Shown: positions 5,815-31,641 of the stretch, one piece after another
Layout: every line of letters begins with the position of its first letter
Numbering within the stretch: the first letter of the stretch is position 1
Assembly (NCBI GenBank): GCA_009839725.1
Contig: VXPF01000124.1
Location: 1 to 42,403 of the forward strand
Direction of reading: 5' to 3'
Source: Dehalococcoidia bacterium
GTDB taxonomy: Bacteria; Chloroflexota; Dehalococcoidia; Tepidiformales; Tepidiformaceae
Length of the DNA: 42,403 nucleotides
The notes under the pieces: model-generated
What the model was told of the DNA's origin: nothing
The model's input: the letters and a program-made list of their open reading frames with translations, nothing else
Databases searched by the model: none
Program-made: the position numbers and the translations under genes

Positions 5815-5839
5815 CAAGTCCCTCCATGAGTGACAACCG

Positions 5840-5859
5840 GACTAGTTACAAGTCTAGTC
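5840..5859. promoter_or_regulatory. Inverted repeat, probable antitoxin operator
   Basis: GACTAG, an 8-bp spacer, then CTAGTC form a perfect 6-bp inverted repeat 25 bp upstream of the Phd-type antitoxin start and in the divergent intergenic region with the Rieske gene. Phd/YefM antitoxins usually bind short palindromes overlapping their own promoter. Binding here is inferred from position and symmetry only. Confidence 0.5.
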
Positions 5860-5942
5860 ATTGGCGATGCAGCCAGCAACACCAAGGGCCGCACGTACCC
5901 GTACAAACCCACCCGGGCGCACCCACCCCAACCACACCGGCG

Positions 5943-5984
5943 TAAGATTGGCGGCACGAGCGGCCCTCGTGCGGGCCTCGGAGG
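5943..5984 (+). promoter_or_regulatory. Probable -10 element and ribosome binding site for the Rieske gene
   Basis: TAAGAT at 5943-5948 resembles a -10 hexamer, with no clear -35 upstream. GGAGG at 5980-5984 lies 7 nt before the ATG at 5992. This strong site decides the start: the frame is open further upstream to an ATG at 5830, but that extension overlaps the antitoxin operator region and has no ribosome binding site. Confidence 0.5.
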
Positions 5985-5991
5985 TTCGACC

Positions 5992-10907: not shown

Positions 10908-11825
10908 CTACACGATCTCGAAGCGCTCGAACTCCTCGTCGGGCAGGTCGTCGGGGACGGGATGGTCGGGCCCAAAGACGAGGGCATTCGGCCCCCCGCT
11001 GGTGACCGACATGCGACCGAGCTTGACGAGTTGCCGCACCGCGCGGTCGACGGCGCGTGAGTCGTGCAGGATGGGCAGCCCTAGGCGGGTGCGAAAGACG
11101 GAGCGGGCGCTGGCGACGTCGCCACCGAACAGCTCCCGCTCGGTCGACTGGAGCTCGGCCAGGGCCACGTCGAAGCTCTGCTGGGGGAAGCGCTCGTAGA
11201 GGAGCGGCAAGAGGTGCATGGAGAGGCTGTCGGCGGCGCCGGCGAGGCGCAGGGGCTCCTCGCGGGTTCGCCCGTGGGGAAGGGGCGCCTCCCACCAGAC
11301 CCATTGCCCGTACAGCTCGCGGAGACACTGCCCGAGGGGGGTGTGGGCGGTCCAGCGCTCGCCCTCATTGGCCCCCGACGCCTCGAAGTCGGCAGCCTGG
11401 CGGCAGAGTTCGAAGACCTCGCGGGCCACGGGTGAGCCCGGATCGGTCAGATCGCAGCCCGGCTCGGCGGGTTCGACCAGCAGGAAAGCGTTGGCATGGG
11501 CCGTGCCCCAGTCGACGACAAGGCGGCGCTCGTCCTCGGGCAGGCGGCGAAGGGAGAGCAGCAGGGTGAGATGGCCGGTGTCGAGGGCTCGGCGGGCGCG
11601 AAGGAACCGCCTCCAGGAGGACGAGCCTTCGAGGTAGACGGGGCTGAGCGGCAGCCTGAGGGGGCGATCGCGAATGGGCACGTCGTAGACGACGCCACGG
11701 GCAGCCCCGGCAAGGTCCTGGAGGCCCTGCAGGAGGATGCGCTCCTCCTCGGACGAGAAGCCGGTTGCGCTTGTCTCGGTCGCACCGGCCCTGCGTGCTC
11801 GCCGCCACAACCCTCGGATGGCCAC
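10908..11825 (-). CDS. Conserved-looking protein of unknown function
   Basis: I do not recognise this 305-residue protein. It is soluble, with no signal or membrane segment, and rich in Arg, Leu and Trp. Visible elements are an N-terminal WRRARR patch, a region about residues 35-120 with strand-like VVYDVPI and LLLSLRRLPEDERRLVVDW, Trp-rich LYGQWVWWEAPLP near the middle, and an acidic C-terminal tail (DLPDEEFERFEIV). The GTG at 11825 is preferred over the GTG two codons upstream because TAGGCT stands exactly 6 nt before it, the same layout as the divergent gcvT promoter. It is divergent from the glycine cleavage operon and upstream of an AbrB/VapC pair. Confidence 0.6.
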   Translation of the reverse strand: MAIRGLWRRARRAGATETSATGFSSEEERILLQGLQDLAGAARGVVYDVPIRDRPLRLPLSPVYLEGSSSWRRFLRARRALDTGHLTLLLSLRRLPEDERRLVVDWGTAHANAFLLVEPAEPGCDLTDPGSPVAREVFELCRQAADFEASGANEGERWTAHTPLGQCLRELYGQWVWWEAPLPHGRTREEPLRLAGAADSLSMHLLPLLYERFPQQSFDVALAELQSTERELFGGDVASARSVFRTRLGLPILHDSRAVDRAVRQLVKLGRMSVTSGGPNALVFGPDHPVPDDLPDEEFERFEIV

Positions 11826-11831
11826 GGGCAC

Positions 11832-11837
11832 AGCCTA
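11832..11837 (-). promoter_or_regulatory. -10-like hexamer TAGGCT, leaderless layout
   Basis: On the minus strand TAGGCT is followed by 6 nt and then the GTG at 11825. The same spacing is seen for gcvT (11931-11936) and the DUF2339 gene (16388-16393). A -10 hexamer at this distance would place the transcription start on or next to the start codon. No clear -35 is visible. Confidence 0.45.
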
Positions 11838-11930
11838 TCGCATCGCGGCCCGGAGCCACCGGAGCCGACCGATGGCGGGATTGATGCTTCTCTTTACCTG
11901 AAGAGGTGGCCCCGTGGACGGGCCGTGGGC

Positions 11931-11936
11931 TACAGT
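11931..11936 (+). promoter_or_regulatory. -10-like hexamer TACAGT, leaderless layout for gcvT
   Basis: TACAGT is followed by 6 nt and then the gcvT ATG, and no ribosome binding site is visible. This matches the TANNNT-then-start pattern of leaderless bacterial promoters. No glycine riboswitch fits in the 117-bp divergent intergenic region (11826-11942). Confidence 0.5.
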
Positions 11937-11942
11937 CGCAGC

Positions 11943-13061
11943 ATGGCTGGACACGACGACTCCGGCGGAAACCCCACGCTCACCCGGCTCACGCTTCACG
12001 AGCGGCACGAAGCGCTGGGTGCACGGTTCGCGCCCTTCGCGGGGTGGGAGATGCCGCTCCAGTACGAGGGCATCGTGGGTGAACACCAGGCCGTGCGGGA
12101 AGGCGTCGGAGTCTTCGATGTCTCGCACCTGGCGCGAGCCTGGGTGGAGGGCCCGCAGGCCGTCGAGCAGTTGCGCTCGGTGACCACGTTCGACGTGACC
12201 ACGCTCCCCGTCGGGAAGGCGCACTACTCCCTCTACTGCAACGAGGCAGGGGGTATCGACGACGACATCTTCATCTACCACCTGCCCGGCGAGCGCTGGC
12301 TGGTGATTCACAACGCCGCAAACGCGGACGAGGACTTCGAGCGCCTGCGCGCCGTGGCCGGCGATGCCGCGTCGGAGGTCACGCCGGAGACCGTGATGTT
12401 GGCCGTGCAGGGACCCGAGGCGGTGGCCCTGCTGGGGCGGGTTCTCGGCGAGGGGTTCATGGCGCTGGAACAACGCGACTGCGCCGAGCTGCAGTGGAAC
12501 GGAGCGTCGGTGCTGGTCGCGCGCACCGGGTACACGGGCGAGGACGGCGGGGAGTGCATCGTTGGGGCCGAGCAGGCGGCGGCGCTCTGGGACGCCTTCA
12601 TCGAGGGCGGCGCGGCTCCGGCGGGCCTGGGCGCCCGGGACACGCTTCGGCTGGAGGCGGCGCTGCCGCTCCACGGCAACGACATCGACGCGGACACGCA
12701 CCCGTACGAGGCGGGGCTCGGCTTCGCTGTGACGCTCGACGACGGCGCGCCGTTCACGGGCCGCGCCGCGCTTGCCGCGGCGAAGGAGCAGCCGCGGACC
12801 CGGCGGCTGGCGCACCTCGCGGCGCGGGACCGGGGGGTCCTGCGGGCAGGCTTCGCGGTACGCGAGCCCGAGAGCGGGGAGGAGGTAGGCCACTTGACCA
12901 GCGGGGCCTTCAGCCCGAGCTTGCGCCTCGGAATAGGCATGGCCTACCTTCCCGTGCGGCTGGCAAAGCCGGGCGTCATGCTTGAGGTCGACGTTCGCGG
13001 CCGGGCGCTTCCGGTCGAGGTCGTGCGGCGGCCGTTCTACAGAAAGCCGAAGGACTCCTGA
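11943..13061 (+). CDS. gcvT: Aminomethyltransferase, glycine cleavage T-protein
   Basis: This 372-residue protein has typical T-protein sequence: FAPFAGWEMPLQYEGIVGEHQAVREGVGVFDVSHLAR at the N terminus (written here as one family signature spanning residues 27-63, recognised through GWEMPLQY and GVFDVSHL), the folate-site region AGGIDDDIFIYHL, and VARTGYTGEDGGE. It takes the methylamine group from lipoylated GcvH, giving methylene-tetrahydrofolate and ammonia. Length and C terminus are normal. The start is set by TACAGT 6 nt upstream and the family N terminus. gcvH begins 2 bp after the stop. Confidence 0.95.
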   Translation: MAGHDDSGGNPTLTRLTLHERHEALGARFAPFAGWEMPLQYEGIVGEHQAVREGVGVFDVSHLARAWVEGPQAVEQLRSVTTFDVTTLPVGKAHYSLYCNEAGGIDDDIFIYHLPGERWLVIHNAANADEDFERLRAVAGDAASEVTPETVMLAVQGPEAVALLGRVLGEGFMALEQRDCAELQWNGASVLVARTGYTGEDGGECIVGAEQAAALWDAFIEGGAAPAGLGARDTLRLEAALPLHGNDIDADTHPYEAGLGFAVTLDDGAPFTGRAALAAAKEQPRTRRLAHLAARDRGVLRAGFAVREPESGEEVGHLTSGAFSPSLRLGIGMAYLPVRLAKPGVMLEVDVRGRALPVEVVRRPFYRKPKDS

Positions 13062-13063
13062 CG

Positions 13064-13462
13064 ATGGACCACGAGACCCCCGAGAACCTGCTCTACACGC
13101 CGAACCATGAATGGCTGCGCCGCGACGACGAGCGTCCGGATGAGGTCACGGTCGGGATCACCGACTACGCCCAGGACCAGGTGGGCGACGTGGTCTACCT
13201 CGACCTTCCCGGCGAAGGGGACGCGGTGACGGCAGGGGAGCGCTGCGGCGAAATCGAGTCGGCGAAGACCGTTTCGGACCTCTACGCGCCGGTCAGCGGA
13301 GAAGTGGTGGCCGCGAATGCGGCGTTGGAGGACCAGCCCGAGCTCGTGAACGCCTCGCCCTTCGACGAGGGCTGGATGGTCCGCCTGCGCATGTCGGACG
13401 AAGCGGAGCTCGAGGGCCTGCTCGATGCGGGCGCGTACCGCGCGCAGATTCCGGAGCACTAG
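13064..13462 (+). CDS. gcvH: Glycine cleavage system H protein
   Basis: This 132-residue lipoyl carrier has the modified lysine Lys68 in EIESAKTVSDLYAP. The N-terminal YTPNHEWL and central ITDYAQDQVGDVVYLDLP are family signatures. It shuttles the aminomethyl group from GcvP to GcvT and then to lipoamide dehydrogenase, whose gene is not in this window. It lies 2 bp after gcvT and 2 bp before gcvPA, so the four genes form one operon. Confidence 0.96.
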   Translation: MDHETPENLLYTPNHEWLRRDDERPDEVTVGITDYAQDQVGDVVYLDLPGEGDAVTAGERCGEIESAKTVSDLYAPVSGEVVAANAALEDQPELVNASPFDEGWMVRLRMSDEAELEGLLDAGAYRAQIPEH

Positions 13463-13464
13463 CG

Positions 13465-14847
13465 TTGGCGTCACCGGCGGACGGCGCGGCGAACGGGGGG
13501 GCGCCCCATCCGTACATCCCGGCCACGGAGGCCGACCGCGCGCGGATGCTGGAGCGGGTCGGCGTGCCCGACCTCGACGCGCTCTTCTCCGACCTGCCCG
13601 CGGCCTTCCGTGACCCGGCGATCGACCTGCCCACGGCGCTGACCGAGCCGGAGCTGATCGCGCTGCTCGAGGAGCGGGCAGACGAGAACGCCGACCCGGC
13701 GCGGCCGAACTTCCTCGGCGCGGGGGCGTACCGGCGTTCCATCCCGGCGATCGCGGCCCACCTGACCGCCCGTTCGGAGTTCGTGACGGCCTACACGCCG
13801 TACCAGCCCGAGATCAGCCAGGGGACCCTGCAATCAGCCTTCGAGTACCAGTCGGTGGTCTGCGAGCTGACGGGCATGGACGTCTCGAACACGGGGCTCT
13901 ACGACGTGGCCAGCGCAACCGCCGAGGCCTGCCTCCTTGCGGTGCGCGCCACGAAGCGGGAGGCCGTGGCCCTGCTGGAACCGATCCACCCGGGAACGGC
14001 GGAGGTGGTGCGCACCTACTCCCGGGGCGCCGGTCTGCGGGTCGACCTCGTGCCATCGGTCAGCGACCTGACCGAGGAACACGCCTGCCTCGTGGTTCAG
14101 CAGCCGGACTTCCTCGGCGCGATCGTGGACCTCGAACCGCTGGCCGAGGCGGCACACGCCTCGGGCGTGCTGCTGGTCACGGTTGCGGACCCGTTCGCGC
14201 TGGGTCTGCTGCGGTCGCCCGGCGAGGCGGGAGCGGACATCGTCACGGGGGAAGGCCGGGACCTCGCGGGCGGGCCGGGCTTCGGCGGGCCATCGCTCGG
14301 GCTGTTCGCGGCGCGCTCGCCCTTCATGCGGCAGATGCCCGGGCGCATCGTGGGCCGCACGCAGGAGCTGTACCCGCCGCCGGACGGGGCGGGGGAGCCA
14401 CGCACCGGCTACGTGCTCACGCTGCAGGCGCGCGAGCAGTTCATCCGGCGAGAGCGGGCGACCTCGAACATCTCGACGGCGCAGGCGCTCATCGCGCTGG
14501 CGTTCACGATCACCACCCAGGCGCTCGGACCGCGAGGCCTGCGGGAGGCGGCGGAGCTGTGCTACCAACGGGCGCACGACGCCTCGGCCCGCATCGCCGC
14601 GCTGCCCGGCTACGAGACGCCAGAACGCGGACCCTGGTTCCAGGAGTTCCTCGTGCGTGGGCCCGTCCCCGCCGAGGACCTCGCGGCCGAGCTGCGGGCG
14701 CGGGGCATCGGGCCGGGCCTCGACGTGTCGGCGCGTCCCGAGCCGGAGGCCCGCGAGGCGCTGCTCTTCGCCGTGACCGAGGCGACGCCCAACGCCCACG
14801 TCGACGCGCTGGTCGCCGCCCTCGCCGAGATCGGGGGCGGCGCGTGA
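13465..14847 (+). CDS. gcvPA: Glycine decarboxylase subunit 1 (GcvPA)
   Basis: The protein is 460 residues. YIPATEADRARMLERVGV and LDALFSDLP near the N terminus, FLGAGAYRRSIPAI, and TAYTPYQPEISQGTLQ are signatures of the N-terminal half of P-protein. It forms the pyridoxal-phosphate decarboxylase with GcvPB. The two-subunit form is usual in Firmicutes, Deinococcus-Thermus, archaea and Chloroflexota, unlike the fused GcvP of most Proteobacteria and Actinobacteria. The start codon is TTG, with no alternative upstream except inside gcvH. Its stop overlaps the gcvPB start by 4 bp (GTGA). Confidence 0.95.
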   Translation: MASPADGAANGGAPHPYIPATEADRARMLERVGVPDLDALFSDLPAAFRDPAIDLPTALTEPELIALLEERADENADPARPNFLGAGAYRRSIPAIAAHLTARSEFVTAYTPYQPEISQGTLQSAFEYQSVVCELTGMDVSNTGLYDVASATAEACLLAVRATKREAVALLEPIHPGTAEVVRTYSRGAGLRVDLVPSVSDLTEEHACLVVQQPDFLGAIVDLEPLAEAAHASGVLLVTVADPFALGLLRSPGEAGADIVTGEGRDLAGGPGFGGPSLGLFAARSPFMRQMPGRIVGRTQELYPPPDGAGEPRTGYVLTLQAREQFIRRERATSNISTAQALIALAFTITTQALGPRGLREAAELCYQRAHDASARIAALPGYETPERGPWFQEFLVRGPVPAEDLAAELRARGIGPGLDVSARPEPEAREALLFAVTEATPNAHVDALVAALAEIGGGA

Positions 14848-16337: not shown

Positions 16338-16387
16338 TGCCGCCCGCAACAGTCCGGCGGGTTAGGGTAATTCGCCGATCGGGTCCC

Positions 16388-16393
16388 TATCAT
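16388..16393 (+). promoter_or_regulatory. -10-like hexamer TATCAT, leaderless layout
   Basis: TATCAT is followed by TGAGTC and then the GTG start at 16400, again a 6-nt gap and no ribosome binding site. This is the third instance of this spacing in the window and supports separate transcription of the DUF2339 gene from the glycine cleavage operon. Confidence 0.5.
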
Positions 16394-16399
16394 TGAGTC

Positions 16400-19300
16400 G
16401 TGGCCTTCACGTGTCGCAGCTGCGGGCTCGAAGTCACCAGCAACGCGGACTGTCCCTGGTGCGGGGTTTCTGAACCGATCGCGGAAGTGGCGGGGCTGGA
16501 CGACGCGTCACCGGAGGAGGTGCTGCGCGAGCTCCAGGCGAGGGTGATCGCGCAAAACGAGGAGCTGGAACGGCTCTCCCGAAGGCTGGAGGCACTTGAA
16601 TGGGGCGGGCCTCCCTCGCCGGCGGAACCGCCACCTGCCCCTGCCCCCACCGAGGAAGCAGCGCCAACCCCAGCCGCGCCGGAGGCGCCGGCCGCCGCCC
16701 CGCCCACGCCCACGCCGGAACCGCCGGCAGCAGTCCCGTTCCTGCAGGCCGGTGAACGCGCGGAACCCTCATCGACGGTCAGATGGGCCAGTGAGCGTGC
16801 CGAAGTCCCACCGGCCGTAGCGGCTCCCCGCGCGCGGGCTCCCCTGCCCTGGGAGGAAGGGGGGAGGCGGTCGCGAGGCGGGAGGCGACGGGGCGGACAG
16901 GGTCTCCCCACGATGGCCATTCCGAACTGGAACTGGGAGTGGCTCGTCGGCGGCAACTGGCTGGCCCGCATCGGCGTGGTCGCGCTGATCGTGGGCGCCG
17001 CCTTCTTCATCAGCCTCGCCATCGACCGCGGCTGGCTGGGCGAAGCCGAGCGAGTCATCCTCGGCTTGATCGCGGGACTCGCGTTCATGGGAGCGGGCGA
17101 GTTCTACCGCACCCGCTACCCGATCTGGGCGCAGACGGTCGCGGGCGGCGGACTGGCGATCCTGTACCTGTCCGTCTACGGCGGGTTCGCCCTGTTCGGC
17201 CTGATCGACCCGGTGCCGGCATTCGGCCTGTTCGCCCTCATCACCGTTGCCGGGGTGGCGCAGGCTCTGCGCCAGGAGTCGGTCGGGCTCGCCGTGCTGG
17301 CGATCTTCGGCGGCTTCGCCACGCCGCTGCTCCTGCAAGAAGACCTACCCGACGAGCGGCTGCTGCTGGCCTACGTGCTCGTGCTGGACATGGGCGTGCT
17401 GGCGCTGGCCAGCATGCGGAACTGGCGCTGGTTCACTCTGCTCGCATGGGCATGGTCGCTGGTGCTGTTCGCCTTCTGGTACTGGGAGCTGGAACCGTCA
17501 ACGGGACTGGCGCAGATCGGCATCTCCACGATCTTCCTCATCTTCGCGGGGTCCACGGCCGCCTTTCACATCGTCCGGCGAAAGCCGGCGGGCATCCTCG
17601 ACATCGCGCTGCTGACGGCGAACGCGATCGCCTACTGCCTGATCAGCTACGGGATTATGTTCGACGCCTACCGCCCCTGGATGGGGGGATTCACGGCGCT
17701 GCTGGCGGCCTTCTACATCCTCCTGGTGGCCGCCTGCCGGATCCGGGGAGGGGCGCCGCTCAACCTCACGCTGTACACAGCGGCGCCGGCCGTGGGGTTC
17801 GCCGCCCTGGCCGTTCCGATACAGCTCGACGGCCCCTGGGTCAGCCTGGCGTGGGGCATCGAGGCGCTCGTGCTGCTGTGGCTGTCGTTCCCGCTGGCAA
17901 TGCGCGAGCTGCGCTGGTCGGGGTACCTCGTGCTGCTCGTCTCGGCCGTCTGGGTGCTGGCCGTCGACACGCCCGCTGCGGTCGAGCGCGATCTCACGCC
18001 GTTCCTGAACCTGCCGATGATCGCCTATGCGGCCGCCGTCATCGCGCCGGCGCTGGCCGCCTACCTCCTGTACCTGCGCCGGGAGGCGCTTCCCGACCGG
18101 GAGCAGCTGCGAATGTCGGCGCCGGTCGCCAGCTTCCTTGGCGTGCGCCGAGACGCGCTGGGGGTTCGGGAGGGGCCGGCGGTCACGGTGTTCGCCGTGT
18201 GGGCGGCCTTCTTCGCCGTCGTTGCGGTCCCCGTGCAGCTCGAGGGCATCTGGATCACCGTGGCCTGGAATGTCGAGGCGCTGCTGCTGGTGTGGCTCGC
18301 GTTCCGCCTGCGCATCCCGGAGCTGCGGTGGTCCGGCTACGTGGTGTTCGCGTTCTCCGGCCTGTGGTTGCTGGCGGTCGACACGACCGACGCGATCGAG
18401 CGGGATCTCACGCCGTTCCTGAACCTGCCGATGATCGCTTACGCGGCCGCCGTCGTCGCGCCCGCGCTGGCCGCCTGCCTCCTGTACCTGCGCCGGGAGG
18501 CGCTTCCCGACCGGGCACAGGTGAACAGCCAGACCCTCGCTAGGAACTGGGAGGGGCTGGCGGTCCCGGTATTCGCCGTGTGGGCGGCCTTCTTCGCCGT
18601 CGTAGCGGTCCCCGTGCAGCTCGAGGGCATCTGGATCACGGTGGCCTGGAACGTGGAGGCGGCGCTGCTGGTGTGGCTCGCACTCCGCCTGCGTCTTCCG
18701 GAGCTGCGGTGGTCGGGATACCTCGAGTTCCTCATCTCCGCCATCTGGCTGCTGTCAGCGGACACGCCCGATGCGGTCGAGCGCGACCTCACACCCTTCC
18801 TGAACGAGCCTATGATCGGCTACCTCGCGGCCATCGTCCTGCCCGTACTTGCCAGCTACGTCGTGTACCGGGGCCGGGCCGACGTGCCGGAGCAGGAGTG
18901 GTCCATCCCGGCGCTGGCGGTCTGGGGCGCGGTGGTCGGGGCGGTCGCGCTTCCCGTTCAGCTGGATGGCGCCCTCGTGAGCGTCTCCTGGGCGGCCTAC
19001 GCCGTGTTCCTGCTGCTGGTGTCGGTGCGGCTTCGCATGGACGCCCTGCGCTGGGCGACCTACGTGCTGCTGGCGGCGCTGGTGATCCGCCTGGCGGCGA
19101 TCGAGACGGCGGACATCGACCTCGACACCCTCCGGCCGATCATCAACTGGCGGTTCCTCGCCTTCGGGTCGGGCATCGCGAGCCTGTACGCAGCGCTGTG
19201 GCTGGCGCGCCGGAACGGCCCGAGCTTCGGCGCCCGCTTCAGGGAAGTGGAGGCGACGGCGGCTCCGGTGGCCCTGTTCGGACTGGCGACGCTGGCGAGC

Positions 19301-19645
19301 CTGTGGATCCTTTCGGCCGAGATCCTGGCCTCGGCGGACAGCGCCCGCCTGAACCTGTCGGACCAGGCGAGCGACAACGTTGCGGTGCTTGGGCTGACCC
19401 TGCTCTGGGCCATCTATGGGGCGACGCTGATGGTGCTGGGCGTGTTACGCCGGATGCGACTGGTGCGGGTGACCGGGCTAGGGCTCCTGATCGTCTCGGT
19501 GATCAAGCTCTTCGCCTACGACTCGGGCGCCCTGGAGCAGGAGTACCGGGTGATTGCGTTCCTGGCGCTGGGCGCCCTGCTGGTGGCGGGCGGCTTCCTC
19601 TACCAGCGCCACAGCAGCGCCGTGCGGGAGTTCCTGTTCGAGTAG
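16400..19645 (+). CDS. DUF2339-type polytopic membrane protein with N-terminal zinc ribbon
   Basis: The protein is 1081 residues. Cys5, Cys8, Cys18 and Cys21 (CRSCG...CPWCG) form a probable zinc ribbon. A short coiled coil (about 36-72), a Pro/Ala-rich linker (about 72-115) and a basic stretch follow. From about residue 175 it is almost entirely hydrophobic helices, including GGNWLARIGVVALIVGAAFF, GGFATPLLLQ and other DUF2339 features. Within the membrane part a unit of about 127-138 residues is repeated four times, with the sequence ELRWSGY and ERDLTPFLN recurring. The family role is unknown, and a cell-envelope function is plausible. The GTG start follows a TATCAT promoter. A hairpin at 19670 may end the transcript. 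Confidence 0.85.
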   Translation: MAFTCRSCGLEVTSNADCPWCGVSEPIAEVAGLDDASPEEVLRELQARVIAQNEELERLSRRLEALEWGGPPSPAEPPPAPAPTEEAAPTPAAPEAPAAAPPTPTPEPPAAVPFLQAGERAEPSSTVRWASERAEVPPAVAAPRARAPLPWEEGGRRSRGGRRRGGQGLPTMAIPNWNWEWLVGGNWLARIGVVALIVGAAFFISLAIDRGWLGEAERVILGLIAGLAFMGAGEFYRTRYPIWAQTVAGGGLAILYLSVYGGFALFGLIDPVPAFGLFALITVAGVAQALRQESVGLAVLAIFGGFATPLLLQEDLPDERLLLAYVLVLDMGVLALASMRNWRWFTLLAWAWSLVLFAFWYWELEPSTGLAQIGISTIFLIFAGSTAAFHIVRRKPAGILDIALLTANAIAYCLISYGIMFDAYRPWMGGFTALLAAFYILLVAACRIRGGAPLNLTLYTAAPAVGFAALAVPIQLDGPWVSLAWGIEALVLLWLSFPLAMRELRWSGYLVLLVSAVWVLAVDTPAAVERDLTPFLNLPMIAYAAAVIAPALAAYLLYLRREALPDREQLRMSAPVASFLGVRRDALGVREGPAVTVFAVWAAFFAVVAVPVQLEGIWITVAWNVEALLLVWLAFRLRIPELRWSGYVVFAFSGLWLLAVDTTDAIERDLTPFLNLPMIAYAAAVVAPALAACLLYLRREALPDRAQVNSQTLARNWEGLAVPVFAVWAAFFAVVAVPVQLEGIWITVAWNVEAALLVWLALRLRLPELRWSGYLEFLISAIWLLSADTPDAVERDLTPFLNEPMIGYLAAIVLPVLASYVVYRGRADVPEQEWSIPALAVWGAVVGAVALPVQLDGALVSVSWAAYAVFLLLVSVRLRMDALRWATYVLLAALVIRLAAIETADIDLDTLRPIINWRFLAFGSGIASLYAALWLARRNGPSFGARFREVEATAAPVALFGLATLASLWILSAEILASADSARLNLSDQASDNVAVLGLTLLWAIYGATLMVLGVLRRMRLVRVTGLGLLIVSVIKLFAYDSGALEQEYRVIAFLALGALLVAGGFLYQRHSSAVREFLFE
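17795..18900 (+). repeat. In-frame tandem duplications inside the DUF2339 gene
   Basis: Corresponding points recur at about 17813, 18227 and 18608, giving periods of 414 and 381 bp. The last two copies are nearly identical over long stretches, for example TTCGCCGTGTGGGCGGCCTT at 18191 and 18572. A fourth, more diverged unit starts near 18900. The high identity between copies suggests recent duplication or ongoing gene conversion. Confidence 0.75.
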
Positions 19646-19669
19646 CGCTCCGACGGACCCGGGGAGACA

Positions 19670-19696
19670 CGCTCGGGTGATGTAACCCCCCGAGCG
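19670..19696 (+). terminator. Hairpin between the DUF2339 and LuxR-peptidase genes
   Basis: CGCTCGGG and CCCGAGCG form an 8-bp perfect stem around an 11-nt loop, 25 bp after the DUF2339 stop and 20 bp before the next start. There is no T tract. It may be a terminator or a regulatory hairpin in the leader of the downstream gene. Confidence 0.4.
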
Positions 19697-19716
19697 CCTG
19701 TGCAAGCATCCGCCTC

Positions 19717-22479
19717 ATGGAGCGCAATCGCGGCGGGCGACCACGCCACCCCGGCATCCTCACGCCGGCGGAGCAACGGGTGCTGGAGGAGCTCCGCAAG
19801 GGCGGGACCAACGCCGAGATCGCGGTTCGCCTCGGTCTCAGCCCCGAGACGGTCAAGAGCCATATCGCCTCGATGCTCTCGAAGCTGTACCTGGCCGATC
19901 GCCGTCAGCTGGCCGCCTGGAGTCCGGAGGCCGAGCGAACGCCAAGCCGCCTCCGCGCGGTGCTGGCCGTCCCCGCCGGCCTGGCGAGCCTTGGGCGTGC
20001 GGCCCCCTGGCTGGGGGGAGGCCTGGCGGGGGCGATCGCCGTGGCGATCGTCGTTGCCGTGCTCATCGTCGTGCTGGACACCGACGAGGACCTGCAGCCT
20101 GGGCCGGGACGGGAGGCGACGAGCAACACCGAATCCGTCTCCCGGGCCACGACCCCACCAGCGCCTCCGCCGACGGCCTCTCCAACCCCTGCCGCGACGC
20201 CCCAGACCACACCTGCACCCACATTGGCGGCGACGCGTACGGTCGAACCCGCCCCAGCGGCGCCTGTCTCGACGTCCGAACCTGAATCAACAGCCACTCG
20301 TACGCCCGTGGCGGCGGCCACGCCTCAGACAGCCCCCACGCCCGAGGTGACCGCTACACCGGAGACGGCGCCGGCGCCCACGCCAGAACCGACCGCCACA
20401 CCGTTATCGGAGCCGACCGCCACGCCCACACCCGCAACCACGCCAGAACCCGCCGCCACACCGTCACCGGCGCCAACCGGCACGTCCGAGGAAGACGAGT
20501 ACTTTGCCTTCCACGATCGATTGGACGAGCTGGCCTGGGTTGTGGATGGAACCACGGACTCCGAAGCGCGTGCTCTCGACTCGCTGAGGAGGCTGAGTGG
20601 TTCCGATGTCGAGCTGGCCACTTCCGTCCTGGGCTTCGCCTGGGTGGAGGACGGCATTACTTGGCGCGATGCAAACACCCTCATCAATATGCAGGTCACT
20701 GCAGGTTTCGACGTGCCCGTGGCGAGGGAGCTGCTTGGCTACCCGTGGGTTCACGACGGCATTACGAGGGCGGAGGATCTTGCCATCCTGAGTGTCCGCG
20801 AACTCGTCAGGGACAACTTGCCCCTAGCCCGGGAGGTAGTCGGGCAACCGTTCCTTGAGTTGCCCTTCCTGCAGCGGGACGAGTACGCCCTGAACTCGCT
20901 CCAACGCATGTCCATCCCTGGCTATGCCCAGGGACCCGCGCTGCTGGCGCGGATTACCAGCGCTCCGTGGTTTGCGGACGGTGTGGATGATGACGACGCG
21001 GCCCTCCTGCACGCCCTGGGCAACAACAGCGATGCGTATCGCGACGCCCTGCTGGAAGAGCACCACGTGCAGGCCACGTCAATCACGCTTCCCCTTGCTG
21101 GTGCGGTAGGCCTTGCCGTCGTGCGGCACACCCCGTTCCCGGCGGACGACGACATGCTGGCAACGCTTGTCGAGGCGGTGACACTCCTCGAGGAGTTCAT
21201 GGGCGTTCCGTTTCCCGTTGGCGACGTCACGCTCCTGCTGGTTGAACCGGAATTCTGGACTCCGAGCTCAAGGGGGCAGCTCTCGAGGTTCACCCAGGGC
21301 AGTGGTCCTGAGCCCTCGTACACCAGGTCCATCGTGGTTGCAGAAAACCCGGAGGGGGGTCCTCCCGTGGGGACCATCTATCACGAACTGGGCCACTACT
21401 ACGATGCGGCGGGACCCAGGTGGTTGCATGAAGGTACCGCCGAATTCCTCGAGGCCTACCTCCACTCCCGTACAGGCGGAGCTCAAATCGAAGAGAGGCT
21501 GCCACATGCGGAGGCCGCCAGCACCTGTTCGGCCAGCACCATCTGGGAGCACGTCAATCCCTATCGGGGCGGCATCTGCGACTACTGCCTTGGAGAGCAG
21601 TTCCTTCTCGGGATGTATCAGGCCCTGGGAGGGGACGCCGTCGCCGCGGCCCTGGGGGACCTGCACCTGGCGGCGCGGTTCTTCGAGAGCCCGAATCACG
21701 ACAGCATCTACTATGCGTTTCTGTCGAACGCGCCGCCTGGGCGGGAGGAGGCGTTCAAGGCAGCCTTCCGCCGCTACCACGGCGGGCCGTTTGTCGACCG
21801 GACGGTCACGGATACACCCGAGCGCTCCGCCCTGGTGGCCCTCTACAACGCCACGAACGGCGATGACTGGACCATCAACCGCAACTGGCTCAGCGACGCG
21901 CCCCTGGGGGCGTGGCACGGCGTCTCGACCAATTCGACCGGTCAGGTCACCCGGCTCATACTCGTGCGCCACGGCCTTGTTGGCGAGCTCCCCTCAGCAC
22001 TGGGACGCCTTCCGAACCTTGTGTACCTGGACCTCAGCGAAAACGAGCTGACCGGGCCGCTCCCGCCCCAGCTCGGGCGGCTCACGAACCTGGTCCAGTT
22101 GCGACTCCAGGCCAATCAACTGGAGGGGGAGATACCAGCCGAGCTTGGCAACCTCGCGAAGCTGGAGCAGTTGATGTTGTTTGGGAGCCAGCTCAGTGGG
22201 CGGCTGCCTCCCGAGCTTGGGCGCCTCACGAATCTCCGGACCCTGTGGGTCGGCGGGAACCAGCTTGGCGGAACGATCCCTCCCGAGCTTGGCAGGCTCG
22301 CGAGCCTCACCTCACTGTCGATCTACGGCAACGACTTCAGCGGATGCATCGCGCCTGAGCTCCCGGATCTCTGGGTCTCGGAGACGAGGCTCCCTCGCTG
22401 CGGGGCGGAAGGGGACGCTACCTCCACAACGGACCCGACGCTCACCCCAACCTCCGACACAACCCCGGAGCCACACTGA
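19717..22479 (+). CDS. LuxR-HTH, transmembrane, metallopeptidase-like and LRR multidomain protein
   Basis: The protein is 920 residues. About residues 12-66 (LTPAEQRVLEELRKGGTNAEIA, LGLSPETVKSHIASMLSKL in two adjacent segments) are a LuxR/GerE helix-turn-helix. One membrane helix follows at about 98-120. Residues 143-258 are a Thr/Pro-rich linker. The middle contains HELGH (His556-Glu557, His560) with Glu572 in WLHEGTAEF as third ligand, a gluzincin zinc-peptidase signature. From about 700 there are six 24-residue plant-type leucine-rich repeats (LxGxIPxELGxLxxL). The predicted topology puts the DNA-binding part in the cytoplasm and the peptidase and LRR outside. A membrane-bound transcription factor with an external sensor is the simplest reading. 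It is convergent with the Cache lipoprotein gene. Confidence 0.85.
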   Translation: MERNRGGRPRHPGILTPAEQRVLEELRKGGTNAEIAVRLGLSPETVKSHIASMLSKLYLADRRQLAAWSPEAERTPSRLRAVLAVPAGLASLGRAAPWLGGGLAGAIAVAIVVAVLIVVLDTDEDLQPGPGREATSNTESVSRATTPPAPPPTASPTPAATPQTTPAPTLAATRTVEPAPAAPVSTSEPESTATRTPVAAATPQTAPTPEVTATPETAPAPTPEPTATPLSEPTATPTPATTPEPAATPSPAPTGTSEEDEYFAFHDRLDELAWVVDGTTDSEARALDSLRRLSGSDVELATSVLGFAWVEDGITWRDANTLINMQVTAGFDVPVARELLGYPWVHDGITRAEDLAILSVRELVRDNLPLAREVVGQPFLELPFLQRDEYALNSLQRMSIPGYAQGPALLARITSAPWFADGVDDDDAALLHALGNNSDAYRDALLEEHHVQATSITLPLAGAVGLAVVRHTPFPADDDMLATLVEAVTLLEEFMGVPFPVGDVTLLLVEPEFWTPSSRGQLSRFTQGSGPEPSYTRSIVVAENPEGGPPVGTIYHELGHYYDAAGPRWLHEGTAEFLEAYLHSRTGGAQIEERLPHAEAASTCSASTIWEHVNPYRGGICDYCLGEQFLLGMYQALGGDAVAAALGDLHLAARFFESPNHDSIYYAFLSNAPPGREEAFKAAFRRYHGGPFVDRTVTDTPERSALVALYNATNGDDWTINRNWLSDAPLGAWHGVSTNSTGQVTRLILVRHGLVGELPSALGRLPNLVYLDLSENELTGPLPPQLGRLTNLVQLRLQANQLEGEIPAELGNLAKLEQLMLFGSQLSGRLPPELGRLTNLRTLWVGGNQLGGTIPPELGRLASLTSLSIYGNDFSGCIAPELPDLWVSETRLPRCGAEGDATSTTDPTLTPTSDTTPEPH

Positions 22480-22526
22480 GCCTCCGTACGACTCCACCGG
22501 TGGACCTGACTCGACTGCAGGCAGCA

Positions 22527-22567
22527 CCACACAGGCACCTGCGGCGTGGCCGCAGGCGCCTGTGTGG
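22527..22567. terminator. Bidirectional terminator-like inverted repeat
   Basis: A 19-bp stem with a single mismatch and a 3-nt loop (arms 22527-22545 and 22549-22567) lies between two convergent genes, 48 bp after one stop and 32 bp from the other. The stem is very GC-rich, and no T run follows on either side. Position and strength suggest it ends transcription from both directions. Confidence 0.6.
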
Positions 22568-22598
22568 TCAGGGACTCAAGGGAACTGCCCAGAACCGA

Positions 22599-24479
22599 TC
22601 ACGGCGCCTCTGGAATGTCGGGCTGGTCGTCGTAGTAGCGCGACATGAAGAGCAGCCCGTCATAGCGGATGGCCCACGTATGCGCGTACAGGGTCTCCGA
22701 GGACCTGATGTTGGGGAAGATGTTGCTTACCCAGACCCCATCCTCGGTGGCTGACGCAAGCTCCTGGCCGAGATGCCGGTCTCCCGATGAGGGGAGAGCC
22801 TTCAAGTCCGTGCCAATGAACTGCGGGGCGATGTGGGCGACCAGCAGAAGGTCGTTCTCGTCCGCGAGGGTGAGGCCCCACTGACCGTCAAGGCTTTCCT
22901 CGCTGCTATAGAGGGCGATGGTGGCGTCCAGGCCATTGCTCTCGTAGTAGTCGATAGCCTGCTGCACATAGGCCATCGTGTGGCCCACAGGGTCTTCGAT
23001 CCGCACGTAGTAGCCGGAGGCGAAGAGCATGCCATCGCGACGCACGGCGTACCCAACCTTGGGGACTTCCTTCAACGTGACCGGGTGGGGCCACAGGTAC
23101 TCCACCCAGACCCCCTCCTCGGTGGCCTCGGCCAACGCCTTGCCCAGTTCGTAGCCATCGGAACCGACCACGTCCTTGATGTCCGTGCCGATGAGTGCCG
23201 GGATGAGCGGGTGGACGTGATAGATGTCGCTCGCGTCGGTGGCGAAGAGATACCACTCGCCCTCGAAGCTGGCGACGCTGTTGTAGTAGTTGAGCATGGA
23301 CTGCAGGCCGTCACGCTCGTATCGCGCGATGGCGGCGTTCACGTACTGAACGGTGTATTCCCTCGGGTCGGCGTCGCGCCAGGCCGGGGGTCCCGTCTCG
23401 GGCTCGCCGGCGTAGTAGCCGGAGGCGAAGATCAGCCCGTCGTGGCGGATGGCCCAGGTAACCTTTTGCTGTTCCTTTCGGGAGACAGGATGGGGCCACA
23501 GGTACTCCACCCACACGCCTTCCCCGGTGGCCTGGGCAATCTCCCTGCCCAGTTCCTGCCCGTCGGAGCCGACCACGTCCTTGATATCCGTGCCGATGAG
23601 GTGCGGGAAGATGGGATGAGCCAGGTAGATGTCGTCATCGCCGATGAGGAACAGGTAGAACTGCCCCTCCAAGCTGTCCCGGCTGTTGTAGTGGGTGATG
23701 GCGGCGTCGAGGCCGTCCGCGTCGTATTTCGCTACGGCCCGGCTCACGTACTCCTTGACGGATTCGGCAACGTCTTGCACCAGGGCCGAATGGCTGGCCG
23801 CGAACACGAGGCCGTCGTGAAGGACGGCGAGAATTCGCCGTGGCTCTTCCTGCTTGGTGTCAGGGTTTACGCCCCGAGCCGTCGCCCAGAAACCCTCCTC
23901 GGTCGCAATTGCTGTCAGCTCTGCGAAGCCGGGGAATGATGAATCCGGGCCAACGTATTGCCCCTGCAGCGCAGGGAGAGCGTGGTGAACCAGCAATATG
24001 TGATCGGCTGTGTTCACGATGGTGAGCGCTCGCCCGTCCCCGAGTCCCGCCTCGGACCTGTAGAACTCGACGGTCGCGTCCAGGCCGTTCTCCCGGTAGT
24101 ACTCAATGGCGGCTGTTACAAAGGCTCGGGTCAGGTCGTCTTCGGTCAGGGGAGCGGGTTCCGGCGTCGGCTCCGGCGTCGGGGTCGCCGTGGGCTCCGG
24201 GGCCTCAGTAGCCGCGGGCGGCGGCTCCGGCGTTGGGGTGGCCGTGGGTTCGGGGGCCGCAGTGGCAGTGGGTTCAGGGGTTGGCGTGGCTGTGGGGTCG
24301 GGGGCCTCGGTGGCGGTGGGCGCCGGCGCCGGGGCAGGATCGTCCCCGCCGCAGGCAACTGCCAGGACGGCGATGGAGGCCACTACCAGAAGCACGAACA
24401 GTGCGTTCACGCCAGCGGGTGCTCGCCGGCACCTCGCTGCTGACCAACTCGCCCACGGTTGCATTCTCGCTCGATTCAA
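22599..24479 (-). CDS. Lipoprotein with four tandem Cache-like sensor units
   Basis: The protein is 626 residues. A signal peptide ends in the lipobox LAVAC with Cys43 lipidated, then a Thr/Pro/Glu-rich linker (about 45-110). Four related units of about 110-130 residues follow. Each starts with a helix like AAIxYYxxxGLDAxxxxYxS and contains a ligand-pocket-like strand, GTDIKDVVGSDG or similar, and GVWVEYLWPHP. These resemble single Cache domains, extracellular small-molecule sensors normally attached to kinases or chemoreceptors, but no signalling domain is present. Units 2 and 3 are the most alike. TTG 24479 is favoured by AGAGGGG 7 nt upstream; ATG 24464 is an alternative. It is divergent from the NCS2 permease and might be its binding protein (inference). 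Confidence 0.75.
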   Translation of the reverse strand: MNRARMQPWASWSAARCRRAPAGVNALFVLLVVASIAVLAVACGGDDPAPAPAPTATEAPDPTATPTPEPTATAAPEPTATPTPEPPPAATEAPEPTATPTPEPTPEPAPLTEDDLTRAFVTAAIEYYRENGLDATVEFYRSEAGLGDGRALTIVNTADHILLVHHALPALQGQYVGPDSSFPGFAELTAIATEEGFWATARGVNPDTKQEEPRRILAVLHDGLVFAASHSALVQDVAESVKEYVSRAVAKYDADGLDAAITHYNSRDSLEGQFYLFLIGDDDIYLAHPIFPHLIGTDIKDVVGSDGQELGREIAQATGEGVWVEYLWPHPVSRKEQQKVTWAIRHDGLIFASGYYAGEPETGPPAWRDADPREYTVQYVNAAIARYERDGLQSMLNYYNSVASFEGEWYLFATDASDIYHVHPLIPALIGTDIKDVVGSDGYELGKALAEATEEGVWVEYLWPHPVTLKEVPKVGYAVRRDGMLFASGYYVRIEDPVGHTMAYVQQAIDYYESNGLDATIALYSSEESLDGQWGLTLADENDLLLVAHIAPQFIGTDLKALPSSGDRHLGQELASATEDGVWVSNIFPNIRSSETLYAHTWAIRYDGLLFMSRYYDDQPDIPEAP

Positions 24480-29209: not shown

Positions 29210-30271
29210 CTAGCGGGTGCGGTCGGAATCCTTGTTGGCGGTGACGCGCTTGCGGCCCCCGTCAGCGGGGAGCGGGCTACCGTCGCGGCCGTTCCAATAG
29301 ATGCCGGGGCGTGGTACCCGGTAGTAATTCGACGGGTGCTCTGGATCGGCGGAATGCCGCGCCGTTTCGTGCGCTGGCCGAAGGAAGCGCCCGAGGGCCG
29401 CTTCGCAATACTCGGGCAATATCTCGATGCAGAGCCACTGCCGCTCAGTGCGCTCGCAGACTTCCCCAGTGACGCAGCTGCCCGCGAACGGATCCAGCAC
29501 GAGGTCTCCTGGCTCGGTCAGCATGCGGATGAAGTACTCGGGTAGGTCTGCCGGGAACCGCGCCGGATGTGGCTTCAGGCCCCGCTCCGCGCAGTAGCGG
29601 AGGTAGAAGCTGTTGCTCTCGGTGTTTGGAATCGCGATCAGGTTAGGTGGGATCGCAGCTCCGTTGTCGCGAAAACTATCGCCGAGGTCATGGCCGGACG
29701 GTCGTCTTCTAGGGGTGAAGCCGCTATTGAGCAGACTGCGCATGCTCGAGCTGTACGGCTGTAGCACGCGGCGGTTGCTCGCCTTCGGCCAAGGCGTTTT
29801 CGCGAGCCACCATACTGTGTTGATAGCGTCCTTCACCCGCAGCCGGCGCACAGTCACCCATTCGGCTGGCGTGGGCAGCTTGGCCGGATTCCACCAGTAG
29901 AAGTCTTGGGCGAGATGAAACCCGTACTCCTCGCAAAGCATAATCAGAAGTTTGAAGTGATATAGGCTCCGCGTCGGAAAGCCCTTATTCCAAGCGCCCC
30001 CGATGTCGATCACCAAGCTGCCGCTCGGCTTGAGCACACGATGAAACTGCTCGGCGAACGGCCGGAACCATTCGGTGTAGTCGCCAGCATCGACGTTCCC
30101 GTAGTCCTTCTTGCGGACCAGTCCGAAGGGCGGACTCGTCATGATCAGATCAACGGATTCGTCGTCGTACGTCGCGAGCACGTCCACGCTGTCGCCGCGC
30201 ACGATAGACCCGAGTCGCGTCTCGTGGAACGTCTCGAAACCGGTTCCCGGGCCGCCCACCTTGTCCCTCAC
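29210..30271 (-). CDS. N4-cytosine DNA methyltransferase, M.PvuII-like
   Basis: This 353-residue beta-class methyltransferase has the catalytic motif TSPPF (45-49) first and the cofactor-binding motif DPFAGS (260-265) near the C terminus. Long stretches recall M.PvuII, a CAGCTG-specific N4-cytosine enzyme: TSPPFGLVRKKDYGN, FYWWNPAKLPTPAEWV, RVKDAINTVWW, RPSGHDLG and HPARFPADLPEYFIRMLTEP. The comparison is from memory of that sequence. The frame is open further upstream, but the start is GTG 30271, because it overlaps the nuclease stop as GTGA and the family N terminus begins there. Its target is therefore probably CAGCTG or a close variant. Confidence 0.9.
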   Translation of the reverse strand: MRDKVGGPGTGFETFHETRLGSIVRGDSVDVLATYDDESVDLIMTSPPFGLVRKKDYGNVDAGDYTEWFRPFAEQFHRVLKPSGSLVIDIGGAWNKGFPTRSLYHFKLLIMLCEEYGFHLAQDFYWWNPAKLPTPAEWVTVRRLRVKDAINTVWWLAKTPWPKASNRRVLQPYSSSMRSLLNSGFTPRRRPSGHDLGDSFRDNGAAIPPNLIAIPNTESNSFYLRYCAERGLKPHPARFPADLPEYFIRMLTEPGDLVLDPFAGSCVTGEVCERTERQWLCIEILPEYCEAALGRFLRPAHETARHSADPEHPSNYYRVPRPGIYWNGRDGSPLPADGGRKRVTANKDSDRTR

Positions 30272-31641
30272 AGTTCCAACCGCTTCAGGCGCATGGCGTG
30301 CCTCGCCTCCCGGTTCAGCACGTCGACGATGGCCGCGGGGCGGCGCTCGATCACGTCGAGATCGGAGCCATCTATCATCACCACGCACAGGTTCATGTCG
30401 CGCATGATGCTGTTCGCATACGCCCTCGCATCGTCGCTGATCGAGCCTGTCGTCACGATGAGCACCGCGTTGCTCTTCAGAAAGTGCGTGAGGCCGACCT
30501 CCTTCGCTACGTCGTCGAGCCGCACCCGCCTGGTGTTCTTGCATTGGATCTGCCAGCGCGAGAAGACGAGTCGGTCGCTGTCGAAGATCAGGTCTACCTC
30601 GGCTCCGCCCGTGTCTTTGCCGCGAACACGCGTGCCGACGTACTTGAGATCGATGGACTGCATCAGTTTGAACGCCAAGGCCTCAAGCGCGAGCCCACGC
30701 CGATGGTGGTCGTCCGGCGTATCGATCTCGGCCCGGATGTCCGCCAGCGACCTGCGTAACAGCGGTCGAATATCGGGGATGACCTGTTGGTCGATCTGCT
30801 CGAGCAGGGGCGCGATGATATCGAGGTCTAGCCGGTCAGTTGCCGTGACCAAGAACGGCTTCGCGCCTCGCCCGCCCTGGCCAGTGCCGCGCTCAAGGGC
30901 GATGTACCCAGCGTCACGGAGCGGATAGAGCACCTGCTTAGGCAGGTTCTTCTCGTTGAAGTCACCGCCGTAGACCGCTGCGGCGAGCTGCTCCACTTCG
31001 TTCGAGAGATGGGGCCCCCCGCCACCGATATTGGCTAGCGCCTTGAGGTACGCTCGCTGCTCCAAGCTGAAGGTCGCGAGGACTTCGATCTCCACGGGGG
31101 TGACGCCCAGAATCTCCTCGAAGCGCCCCAGATCGACCCGGTAGTTCGTTACGAAGACACCCGCCCGCTCAAGCCACAACCGCATCGTGCTCATGTGCTT
31201 GCCGCCGCGCGGCACGACGATGCCGGTCGCCTCCAGGCGTTGGCGTAGGCTTATCAGCGTGATGCGGTCTCCGGCCGACTGCATGTCCATGATGCACTGA
31301 ACGAAGGCCGCACCTTGGCATTCTCTGAGGATGTGCCGCGCGAGAGCTTCGTACAGTTCGGCCTCGCTGCTCCTGACGGCGTAGAGCGAACGCCCAAACG
31401 GCGTCAGCGTCGCATCATCGGTCCCGATGATGCCGTACGCTCGCAGCGAGAGCTTGGTGTTGTTCGCCAACTTCCGCTTGTTGGCGTCAGATGTCGGACG
31501 GTCGGCGAAGTAACGGATGCGGACGGCATCCTCGAAGGCACGCCAATCACTAGCGTGTTCGTGAGCCAGCTCCAGCAGCACCGCCAGCTCGATCTGGGCC
31601 GGTGAGAACTCACTACCGAACGGTAGGTCGCTGCGAGCCAT
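30268..31641 (-). CDS. Restriction endonuclease, Mrr_cat-like C-terminal domain
   Basis: The protein is 457 residues. The C-terminal part has a PD-(D/E)xK core of the Mrr type: RGLALEALAFKLMQ (candidate Glu320), then Asp350 in GGAEVDLIFDS, and Gln366-Cys-Lys368 in WQIQCKNT. The N-terminal 300 residues are predicted helical and winged-helix-like (KLSLRAYGIIGTDDATLTPFG and LPKQVLYPLRDAGYIALERG), probably DNA recognition. It overlaps the M.PvuII-like methyltransferase by 4 bp, so they form one restriction-modification unit. It does not resemble the 157-residue R.PvuII. A promoter-like TAGACA-18-TATAGT lies upstream. No controller-protein gene is present. Confidence 0.82.
   Translation of the reverse strand: MARSDLPFGSEFSPAQIELAVLLELAHEHASDWRAFEDAVRIRYFADRPTSDANKRKLANNTKLSLRAYGIIGTDDATLTPFGRSLYAVRSSEAELYEALARHILRECQGAAFVQCIMDMQSAGDRITLISLRQRLEATGIVVPRGGKHMSTMRLWLERAGVFVTNYRVDLGRFEEILGVTPVEIEVLATFSLEQRAYLKALANIGGGGPHLSNEVEQLAAAVYGGDFNEKNLPKQVLYPLRDAGYIALERGTGQGGRGAKPFLVTATDRLDLDIIAPLLEQIDQQVIPDIRPLLRRSLADIRAEIDTPDDHHRRGLALEALAFKLMQSIDLKYVGTRVRGKDTGGAEVDLIFDSDRLVFSRWQIQCKNTRRVRLDDVAKEVGLTHFLKSNAVLIVTTGSISDDARAYANSIMRDMNLCVVMIDGSDLDVIERRPAAIVDVLNREARHAMRLKRLEL

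Follow-up and report, generated by a model that had tools for sequence, protein, structure and literature searches.

Regulators such as ToxR and CadC carry an OmpR-type winged helix-turn-helix (HTH). Transmembrane transcription regulators (TTRs) are an established class in which single-pass proteins are the commonest (about 56%), and the main text of the paper describing this mentions neither LuxR nor GerE (PMC10269533). In Coriobacteriia, DadR, HcdR and CadR are LuxR regulators with 10-12 transmembrane (TM) segments that occur in large paralogue sets, and for the TM LuxRs of Eggerthella gene activation was shown by deletion and complementation (PMC9734109). Here a 42,403-nucleotide stretch of a Dehalococcoidia bacterium (Chloroflexota; contig VXPF01000124.1, assembly GCA_009839725.1), referred to as the window, was analyzed. 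It harbors an uninterrupted open reading frame (ORF) with an ATG start on the forward strand (19717-22479) that encodes a protein of 920 residues. Read from the sequence, this protein is probably a type-II membrane regulator, in which an N-terminal arm and a LuxR-type HTH would bind a box in the promoter of its own gene, and a gluzincin and leucine-rich repeats (LRRs) would form the sensor outside.

The protein is composed of arm, HTH, TM helix, stalk, helical repeats, gluzincin domain and LRRs (19717..22479, +, ORF reading and Pfam). Its LuxR/GerE-type HTH covers residues 14-67 (19756..19917; Pfam GerE, E 8.6e-14, 51.4 bits against a cut-off of 23.5), with the recognition helix at about residues 42-56, and was modelled confidently in the full-length AlphaFold model (mean pLDDT of 91-98 in 10-residue blocks). 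Partial NCBIfam matches to the EpsA, CsgD and NarL models were far under cut-off. In front of it lies the arm (RGGRPRHP, residues 5-12, 19729..19752), which was assigned from sequence and family conservation and contains an AT-hook-like RGRP/GGRP motif. A single strong TM segment was obtained at residues 102-120 (20020..20076; Kyte-Doolittle (KD) hydropathy 3.07), corresponding to a modelled helix at 103-120 and agreeing with the charge bias; a further segment at residues 451-469 is borderline (1.67). The original prediction had placed a LuxR HTH at residues 12-66 and one TM helix at 98-120, and both were found by Pfam and hydropathy with boundaries a few residues apart. The Thr/Pro linker that it had described is likewise present as a stalk of 138 residues (121-258; 20077..20490), which consists of 49% Thr plus Pro and has acidic residues directly after the TM helix. 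It is followed by helical repeats with W(V/F)xDG motifs at 274, 309, 344 and 418 (20491..21036, boundaries approximate; alignment and AlphaFold, helices mostly of low confidence), by an M1-like gluzincin domain (21037..21846, boundaries approximate; alignment and profile) and by an LRR domain with an N-cap (21877..22407). The LRRs matched above the curated Pfam cut-offs (LRR_1 8.4e-15; LRR_14 3.9e-14 over 754-897) and were modelled well by AlphaFold. They are of the predicted plant type with 24-residue repeats (LxxLxLxxNxLxGxIP); a strict pattern fits four of them, and the proposed number of six is reached only by eye. In the window protein, neither a receiver nor an autoinducer-binding domain was found with Pfam and NCBIfam, and Pfam gave no OmpR-type Trans_reg_C domain; the 25 families displayed for 84 members of the family described below do not include it either.

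The first ~125 residues (RGRP-like arm, HTH and TM helix) form a module that was found in 94 distinct Chloroflexota proteins, nearly all from Dehalococcoidia: the source genomes of 91 are in the same class as the window, and three (L095, L096, L103) stem from metagenome-assembled genomes (MAGs) labelled only Chloroflexi/Chloroflexota. The relatives that carry a name are MAGs, among them SB0661_bin_22, IRC3_bin_22 and jk18x1bzbins.86, and several are labelled as Dehalococcoidia. Within the genus 8 of 9 genomes contain the module (E 1e-10), at family rank 30 of 38 (E 1e-12), in the class at least 25 of 197 and in the phylum at least 8 of 301 (both E 1e-16). The last two counts may be low, since 21 and 14 candidates were scored per genome, respectively. 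Five matches of the phylum scan lie outside the class, three spanning the HTH only and two extending to model position 102-103. With the full-length protein as query no relatives were obtained in the named genomes; the module alignment found 36 loci there, including ordinary regulators of other phyla (L111-L114, L116-L121), which were excluded from the family. A hydrophobic segment starts between residues 60 and 190 in 96 of 99 distinct proteins, and of the remaining three, two are ordinary regulators of other phyla and one is cut off. Within the first 16 residues RGRP occurs in 54/100 and GRP or GKP in 70/100 family proteins, the window protein having GGRP; in the genus set the arm is nearly invariant (G7 40/40, R8 39/40, P9 40/40).

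What follows the module varies. Pfam analysis of 84 of the 94 proteins gave GerE in 84, RCC1_2 in 13, PD40 in 10, SH3_3 in 6, CarboxypepD_reg in 3, LRR in 2 and fn3 in 1, and kinase or receiver domains were found neither in the window protein nor in the scanned family members. Single-linkage clustering by similarity of the ectodomains, which are often joined to the TM-anchored module through a similar stalk, sorted 100 proteins (six in addition to the 94) into 44 groups, of which 27 have a single member. The window's own draft genome (2.83 Mb, 160 contigs) contains 12 loci with the module, the window counted. One of these is truncated by a contig end and shares 33% identity with the window copy; among the other ten, five have RCC1-type repeats (by motif; L022 also by Pfam), L029 and L030 have peptidase-like ectodomains without HExxH, and the ectodomains of L024, L027 and L028 have no firm assignment. 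As the same module recurs in ten other own-genome genes with other ectodomains, two genes joined by an assembly error are an unlikely explanation for the window protein. Tandem arrays of HTH-TM genes were also seen, with seven genes within 10 kb at L186 (G146:C61:1-14000), seven at L187 (20 kb) and five at L188 (19 kb), and one HTH-TM protein combines RCC1-type and LRR motifs by pattern (L146, G003:C111, 2480-6163, +).

Positive charge is higher in the 30 residues preceding the TM helix than in the 30 following it for 99 of 100 family proteins, and because of this positive-inside bias the HTH is predicted to lie inside. A DNA-binding domain and at least one TM helix in one chain, by which TTRs are recognized, are both present in the window protein. 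From its sequence we infer a single-pass, type-II TTR with a cytoplasmic HTH, and the one-protein membrane regulator proposed originally, with the HTH inside and the peptidase-LRR part outside, fits this charge bias.

When the upstream regions of the orthologues were aligned, conserved islands became visible. In 41 of 44 near relatives (search range -55 to -36), the box CGGGKRRKGWAAnTC or a close variant begins 41-43 nt before the start codon, followed after ~16 nt by CTAGnnT or a similar element a few nt before the start codon. The window gene has the box CGGGTGATGTAACCCC (19674..19689, +), identified by upstream alignment and box scoring, which starts 43 nt before the start codon, and a -10-like CAAGCAT 7 nt before the ATG (19703..19709, +), which was assigned by position only and deviates from the commonest family form, CTAGnnT or similar. 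This placement suggests a near-leaderless transcript. An 8-bp perfect inverted repeat, CGCTCGGG/CCCGAGCG, overlaps the box (19670..19696) and may be due to chance or to the end of the upstream gene. Box scores of at least 14 (of 17.5) were reached by 66 of 100 family genes compared with 1.8% of 3000 random windows, at a cut-off that was set after the score table had been seen. The scoring template accepts A and G alike at positions 6-7 and does not favor GA over AG. The exact core TCGGGKRRKGWAA occurs six times in the 2.83-Mb own genome, five times in front of HTH-TM genes (the window gene, L021, L024, L026 and L027) and once inside the 16S rRNA. Across nine genomes of the genus, 16 of 38 exact core matches are located at HTH-TM genes, and G001, which is without an HTH-TM gene, has four matches as background. 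When one mismatch was allowed, 59 matches were obtained in the own genome versus 19 for the reversed pattern. In scans of 19500-22700, matches to sigma-70 promoters and terminators did not clearly exceed chance. A CsgD box consensus was not found in the papers searched, and no resemblance to it is claimed.

The bases of the box covary with residues of the protein encoded downstream. For the residue-base tests, genes with a box score under 14 (34 of 100) were omitted. In the near set, all 14 genes with Thr or Ser at residue 48 have GA at box positions 6-7, compared with none of the 27 others. Beyond this discovery set, GA was present elsewhere in the class in 4 of 5 genes with T/S48 and in 0 of 20 others (Fisher p 4e-4); the upstream sequences concerned had been inspected before this formal test was made. 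For L194 the best copy at -61 was used in the early tests and the copy at -41 in the scan and likelihood tests; neither contains GA. When 70 HTH columns were scanned, with weighting and background correction, against the 16 positions of the box, the top columns were 48, 44, 6, 45, 51, 52, 54, 46 and 42, eight of which are in the recognition helix (hypergeometric p 4e-6), whereas the 16 nt before and after the box gave 3/9 (p 0.30) and 1/9 (p 0.91) as controls. A rank test over all variable columns yielded p 0.009 for the box and 0.41 for the downstream flank. The ninth column, residue 6 of the arm, covaries with the opposite end of the box (positions 13-14): near-set genes encoding RGR have AATTC, AAATC or TAATC there, and those encoding GGR have AACCT, AACCC or AACTC.

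Likelihood tests of correlated evolution, performed on a tree built without the helix and arm columns, supported the pairing of residue 48 T/S with GA at 6-7 (likelihood ratio (LR) 51.8, p 1.5e-10), residue 45 T with G6 (LR 38.8, p 8e-8), residue 6 R with T14 (LR 35.4, p 4e-7) and residue 42 G with G5 (LR 21.7, p 2e-4). The swapped pairs were unsupported (48 with T14, LR 1.6, p 0.80; 6 with GA, LR 5.4, p 0.25), as was the further control pair of residue 20 with GA (p 0.14). The association of residue 48 with GA held on 20 of 20 bootstrap topologies (20 of 1000 used, equal branch lengths). The window protein obeys this code, having S48 with GA, S42 with T5 and G6 with AACCC; residue 48 is presumably a base-contacting position in NarL. 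Because the box bases covary with the recognition helix and the arm, the HTH most likely binds the promoter of its own gene. This supports DNA binding and leaves the place of action aside, and it is in line with the direct gene control that had been suggested originally.

In the mechanism that we consider probable, the AT-hook-like arm and the LuxR-type HTH would bind, on the inner side of the membrane, to the 16-bp box in the -35 region of the own promoter. Within the box, CGGGTGA on the 5' side would be read by the recognition helix, and the 3' side, which is AACCC here and AATTC or AAATC elsewhere, by the arm. Outside, the Thr/Pro stalk would carry the helical repeats, the M1-like gluzincin, whose zinc and catalytic residues are intact, and the LRRs. 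This ectodomain would bind a peptide or polymer, with the LRRs as binder and the gluzincin as binder or trimmer, and binding would alter HTH dimerisation across the membrane, as in ToxR/CadC. In consequence, the own gene and the genes sharing the box (here the paralogue L024) would be switched on or off. For its topology, its signal transfer and the direction of regulation, this mechanism draws on the analogy with ToxR/CadC and the Eggerthella TM LuxRs.

Related boxes were also found at other genes. The pattern GGKGTAATTC gave 14 matches in the own genome, all of them GGGGTAATTC, and none for the reversed control. By reading, CTA occupies the -10 place at 12 of these sites, and at least 8 of the 14 precede an exported or Thr/Pro-lipoprotein ORF, two of which clearly have RCC1 repeats. 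At L318-L331 of the own genome, GGGGTAATTC and a CTAGnnT-like element stand before exported lipoproteins, a probable surface-protein regulon. The frequent context ACGGACGGGGTAATTCG is the box of a group of HTH-TM genes referred to as E04-type. The pattern SGGGGTAATTC matches 46 times in the genus; of the 35 matches contributed by genomes other than the own one, 26 were read. Where an E04 gene exists (six genomes), ACGG(A/C)C precedes GGGGTAATTC at 22 of 22 sites, including one with a two-base displacement and five at the E04 genes, compared with 0 of 4 sites in the two genomes without such a gene. An E04-type gene was not found in the own draft genome (completeness 92%), though such sites are present there. 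This suggests that some of the receptors control the surface lipoproteome, and a sigma factor could also explain the set.

To place the ectodomain, relatives of residues 259-715 were searched and found in 14 of 294 genomes of the class, including the own genome (E 1e-5). From these matches, 15 proteins fetched by place as well as L031 and L032 were scanned, and none of them has the HTH-TM module. A hydrophobic segment near the frame start is present in 14 of the 15 (not in L238), in L031 and in the first piece of L032, and HExxH is present in all of them. L032 (4058-6825) is an own-genome gluzincin-LRR relative that is broken into two ORFs. As the scanned peptidase-LRR relatives are without HTH, the window protein is a fusion. 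The exact order HTH-TM-gluzincin-LRR, for which a search had been proposed, was seen in the window protein only and in none of the relatives scanned. The original impression of an unfamiliar architecture holds for this exact order and not for the protein as an isolated case, since it belongs to a family with interchangeable ectodomains and membrane-bound LuxR HTHs were already known.

The HELGH motif with a downstream WLxEG glutamate, as predicted, comprises residues 556-560 (21382-21396) and E572 of WLHEG (21430-21432), in the spacing HExxH-x11-E. In an 18-row alignment, H556, E557, H560 and W569 are conserved in all rows and E572 in 17, the exception being the broken gene L032, and Cys604 and Cys621 are nearly invariant. 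The assignment as a peptidase-like domain was upheld by these zinc-site residues and by the 18-row profile, which matched M1 aminopeptidases in the PDB (ERAP1, E 5.8e-12), and not by searches with the protein alone, for which no peptidase match was obtained with Pfam (E up to 1) or NCBIfam (E up to 0.01). Pfam Peptidase_M1 was matched by 4 of the 18 aligned members, and a single-sequence search of the PDB with the ectodomain gave just two weak unrelated matches. The domain resembles M1 aminopeptidases in HExxH, the downstream Glu and the match to ERAP1, but differs by the x11 spacing and by the GAMEN motif, which was not seen by eye in the aligned region; we take HExxH-x18-E and GAMEN to be typical of the M1 family. 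It further differs by the helical repeats in front and the LRRs behind. Given the spacing and the missing GAMEN, the domain is termed M1-like and is not regarded as an M1 member. The window copy retains the zinc and catalytic residues and may be an active peptidase, and for the pair of LRRs and gluzincin a peptide or polymer ligand is our guess.

In five HTH-anchored relatives (A5), WLxEG is kept and HExxH is gone in 5/5 rows, a pattern which suggests that enzyme domains were turned into receptors. The HTH-anchored L148 and L149 do carry HExxH. L104, L106, L107, L109, L029 and L030 are HTH-anchored and gluzincin-like without HExxH and may be pseudo-peptidase receptors. An AlphaFold model of L109 (mean pLDDT 62) gave M1 matches that are weak (best E 1.3e-5, query TM-scores 0.20-0.29).

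Several observations weigh against the mechanism considered probable above. Three near relatives (L029, L193 and L151:4401) have no recognisable box, 34 of 100 family genes score under 14, and in the window the core with one mismatch was found three times with 2.8 expected, a chance level that shows the relaxed pattern to be noisy. One gene with T/S48, L183:2727, is without GA. The rank test also gave p 0.035 at the upstream flank and residue 63 with GA, one of four control pairs, reached p 0.01, so that the phylogenetic correction is imperfect. The pairs of residues 45, 6 and 42 had been picked by the scan before the likelihood test, and the conservative, underpowered independent-pairs test gave four pairs, of which three agree and one shows no difference (p 0.25), with 2/2 in the near set (p 0.5). 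The peptidase was poorly modelled in the full-length AlphaFold model. Finally, the GGGGTAATTC/CTAG layout also precedes exported genes without HTH, for which reason the box may in part be an element for a sigma factor. Taken further, the box might be the -35 element of a dedicated sigma factor for exported and membrane proteins, for example of the extracytoplasmic function (ECF) type, in which case the HTH-TM proteins would simply belong to its regulon and the target of the HTH would lie elsewhere. The near-fixed spacing from the box to the CTAGnnT-like element and the start codon fits this explanation, as do the identical layout before exported lipoproteins (the 14 own-genome sites) and before the DUF2339 gene at 16359, and the lipoprotein sites of an own draft genome in which no E04-type receptor was found. 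However, a sigma site is not expected to covary with helix and arm residues of the protein encoded downstream, and the ACGG(A/C)C sites track the E04 gene across genomes. We therefore regard a sigma element as rather unlikely.

Regulated proteolysis, in which a ligand would trigger cleavage and the freed HTH would act in the cytoplasm, with the gluzincin possibly cleaving neighbours or itself, appears improbable to us. It would be favored by the long flexible stalk and by the conservation of HExxH and the downstream Glu in the aligned ectodomains; yet the A5 ectodomains lost HExxH while anchored to an HTH, which makes peptidase activity unnecessary for the design. It is very improbable that the HTH is a degenerate anchor and the protein only a surface peptidase or adhesin. 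The ectodomain looks complete and its HTH-less relatives exist as separate proteins, but the HTH core is conserved and covaries with promoter bases, and the HTH is constrained in relatives. In 11 ortholog pairs, which do not include the window gene, HTH identity is 0.89-1.00 with dN/dS from 0 to 0.36, and ectodomain identity goes down to 0.30. Ten pairs allow a comparison of dN/dS, and in nine of them the HTH has a lower value than the ectodomain; the very close pair L157/L162 departs from this.

Returning to the membrane regulator with its own box, a tree of 44 modules was used to follow the ectodomains. The 13 ectodomain labels require 16 changes, compared with a minimum of 12 and a shuffled mean of 27.8, so that ectodomains mostly stay with their module and yet have been exchanged. 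The RCC1 type alone needs 6 changes, at least two of which are forced by well-supported branches. The three rows closest to the window module by path have RCC1 ectodomains; the origin of the window module is nevertheless unsure, because no well-supported set contains it. A wider picture, which we put forward tentatively and a little short of an even chance, is a Dehalococcoidia receptor array with one output module and many ectodomains, including exported enzymes turned sensors. Helix residues 42-54 with box positions 1-9 and residue 6 of an arm in the minor groove with positions 13-14 would form the code by which each receptor reads the own promoter, some receptors (the E04 type) would control the surface lipoproteome through matching boxes, and the window protein would be the result of an ectodomain swap by which an intact gluzincin-LRR protein came to sit on the module.

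Directly upstream of the gene, a DUF2339 multi-pass membrane protein is encoded (16359-19645, +), and its GTG start is preceded at 41 nt by a related box of its own, GGGTTAGGGTAATTC. Downstream lies a convergent gene (22599-24479, -) for a lipoprotein-like protein with a Thr/Pro stalk and repeated Cache domains (sCache_2, dCache_2; Pfam), near whose start no box scoring at least 13 was found. The conservation signal of neighbouring genes came mostly from shadow ORFs and is not relied on here. Elsewhere the window encodes a Rieske oxygenase (5830-7680, +), glycine cleavage T and P proteins (11496-14847, +) and an N6_N4 DNA methylase (29213-30544, -).

Membrane-bound transcription factors are common, and how they find promoters and gain new inputs is poorly understood. 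A conserved output module with dozens of natural sensors and a readable DNA code offers a ready test set, in which HTH-box pairs predict the base changes tolerated by each residue, and the fusions show enzymes and propellers recruited as sensors in Chloroflexota that are mostly uncultured. With the TTRs ToxR, CadC and TcpP, the window family shares a DNA-binding domain, at least one TM helix and a further part beyond the helix in one protein; the DNA-binding domain is cytoplasmic in these TTRs and is predicted to be so here. The family differs from them by the LuxR-type HTH with its RGRP arm, the lineage-wide interchangeable ectodomains and the self-box. LuxR-, NarL- and CsgD-type proteins likewise have GerE, whereas in the window protein the HTH is N-terminal and no receiver or autoinducer domain was found. 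The hybrid TTRs with Y_Y_Y outside domains of Bacteroidota and others also combine a large outside domain with a membrane regulator, but carry kinase or receiver domains, of which none were found in the window family. The DadR type is alike in the LuxR HTH on a membrane protein and in the large paralogue sets; it has 10-12 N-terminal TM segments and a C-terminal HTH, whereas the window family has an N-terminal HTH, one TM helix and a large outside domain. Among the listed titles and beginnings of abstracts, a coverage that spans few subscription journals and includes the available part of PMC6306507 on sponge Chloroflexi, no account was found of an N-terminal arm-HTH-TM module with exchangeable ectodomains and a covarying self-box. 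Taken together, membrane LuxR regulators and TTRs are known, and the arm-HTH-TM layout and its box appear to be new.

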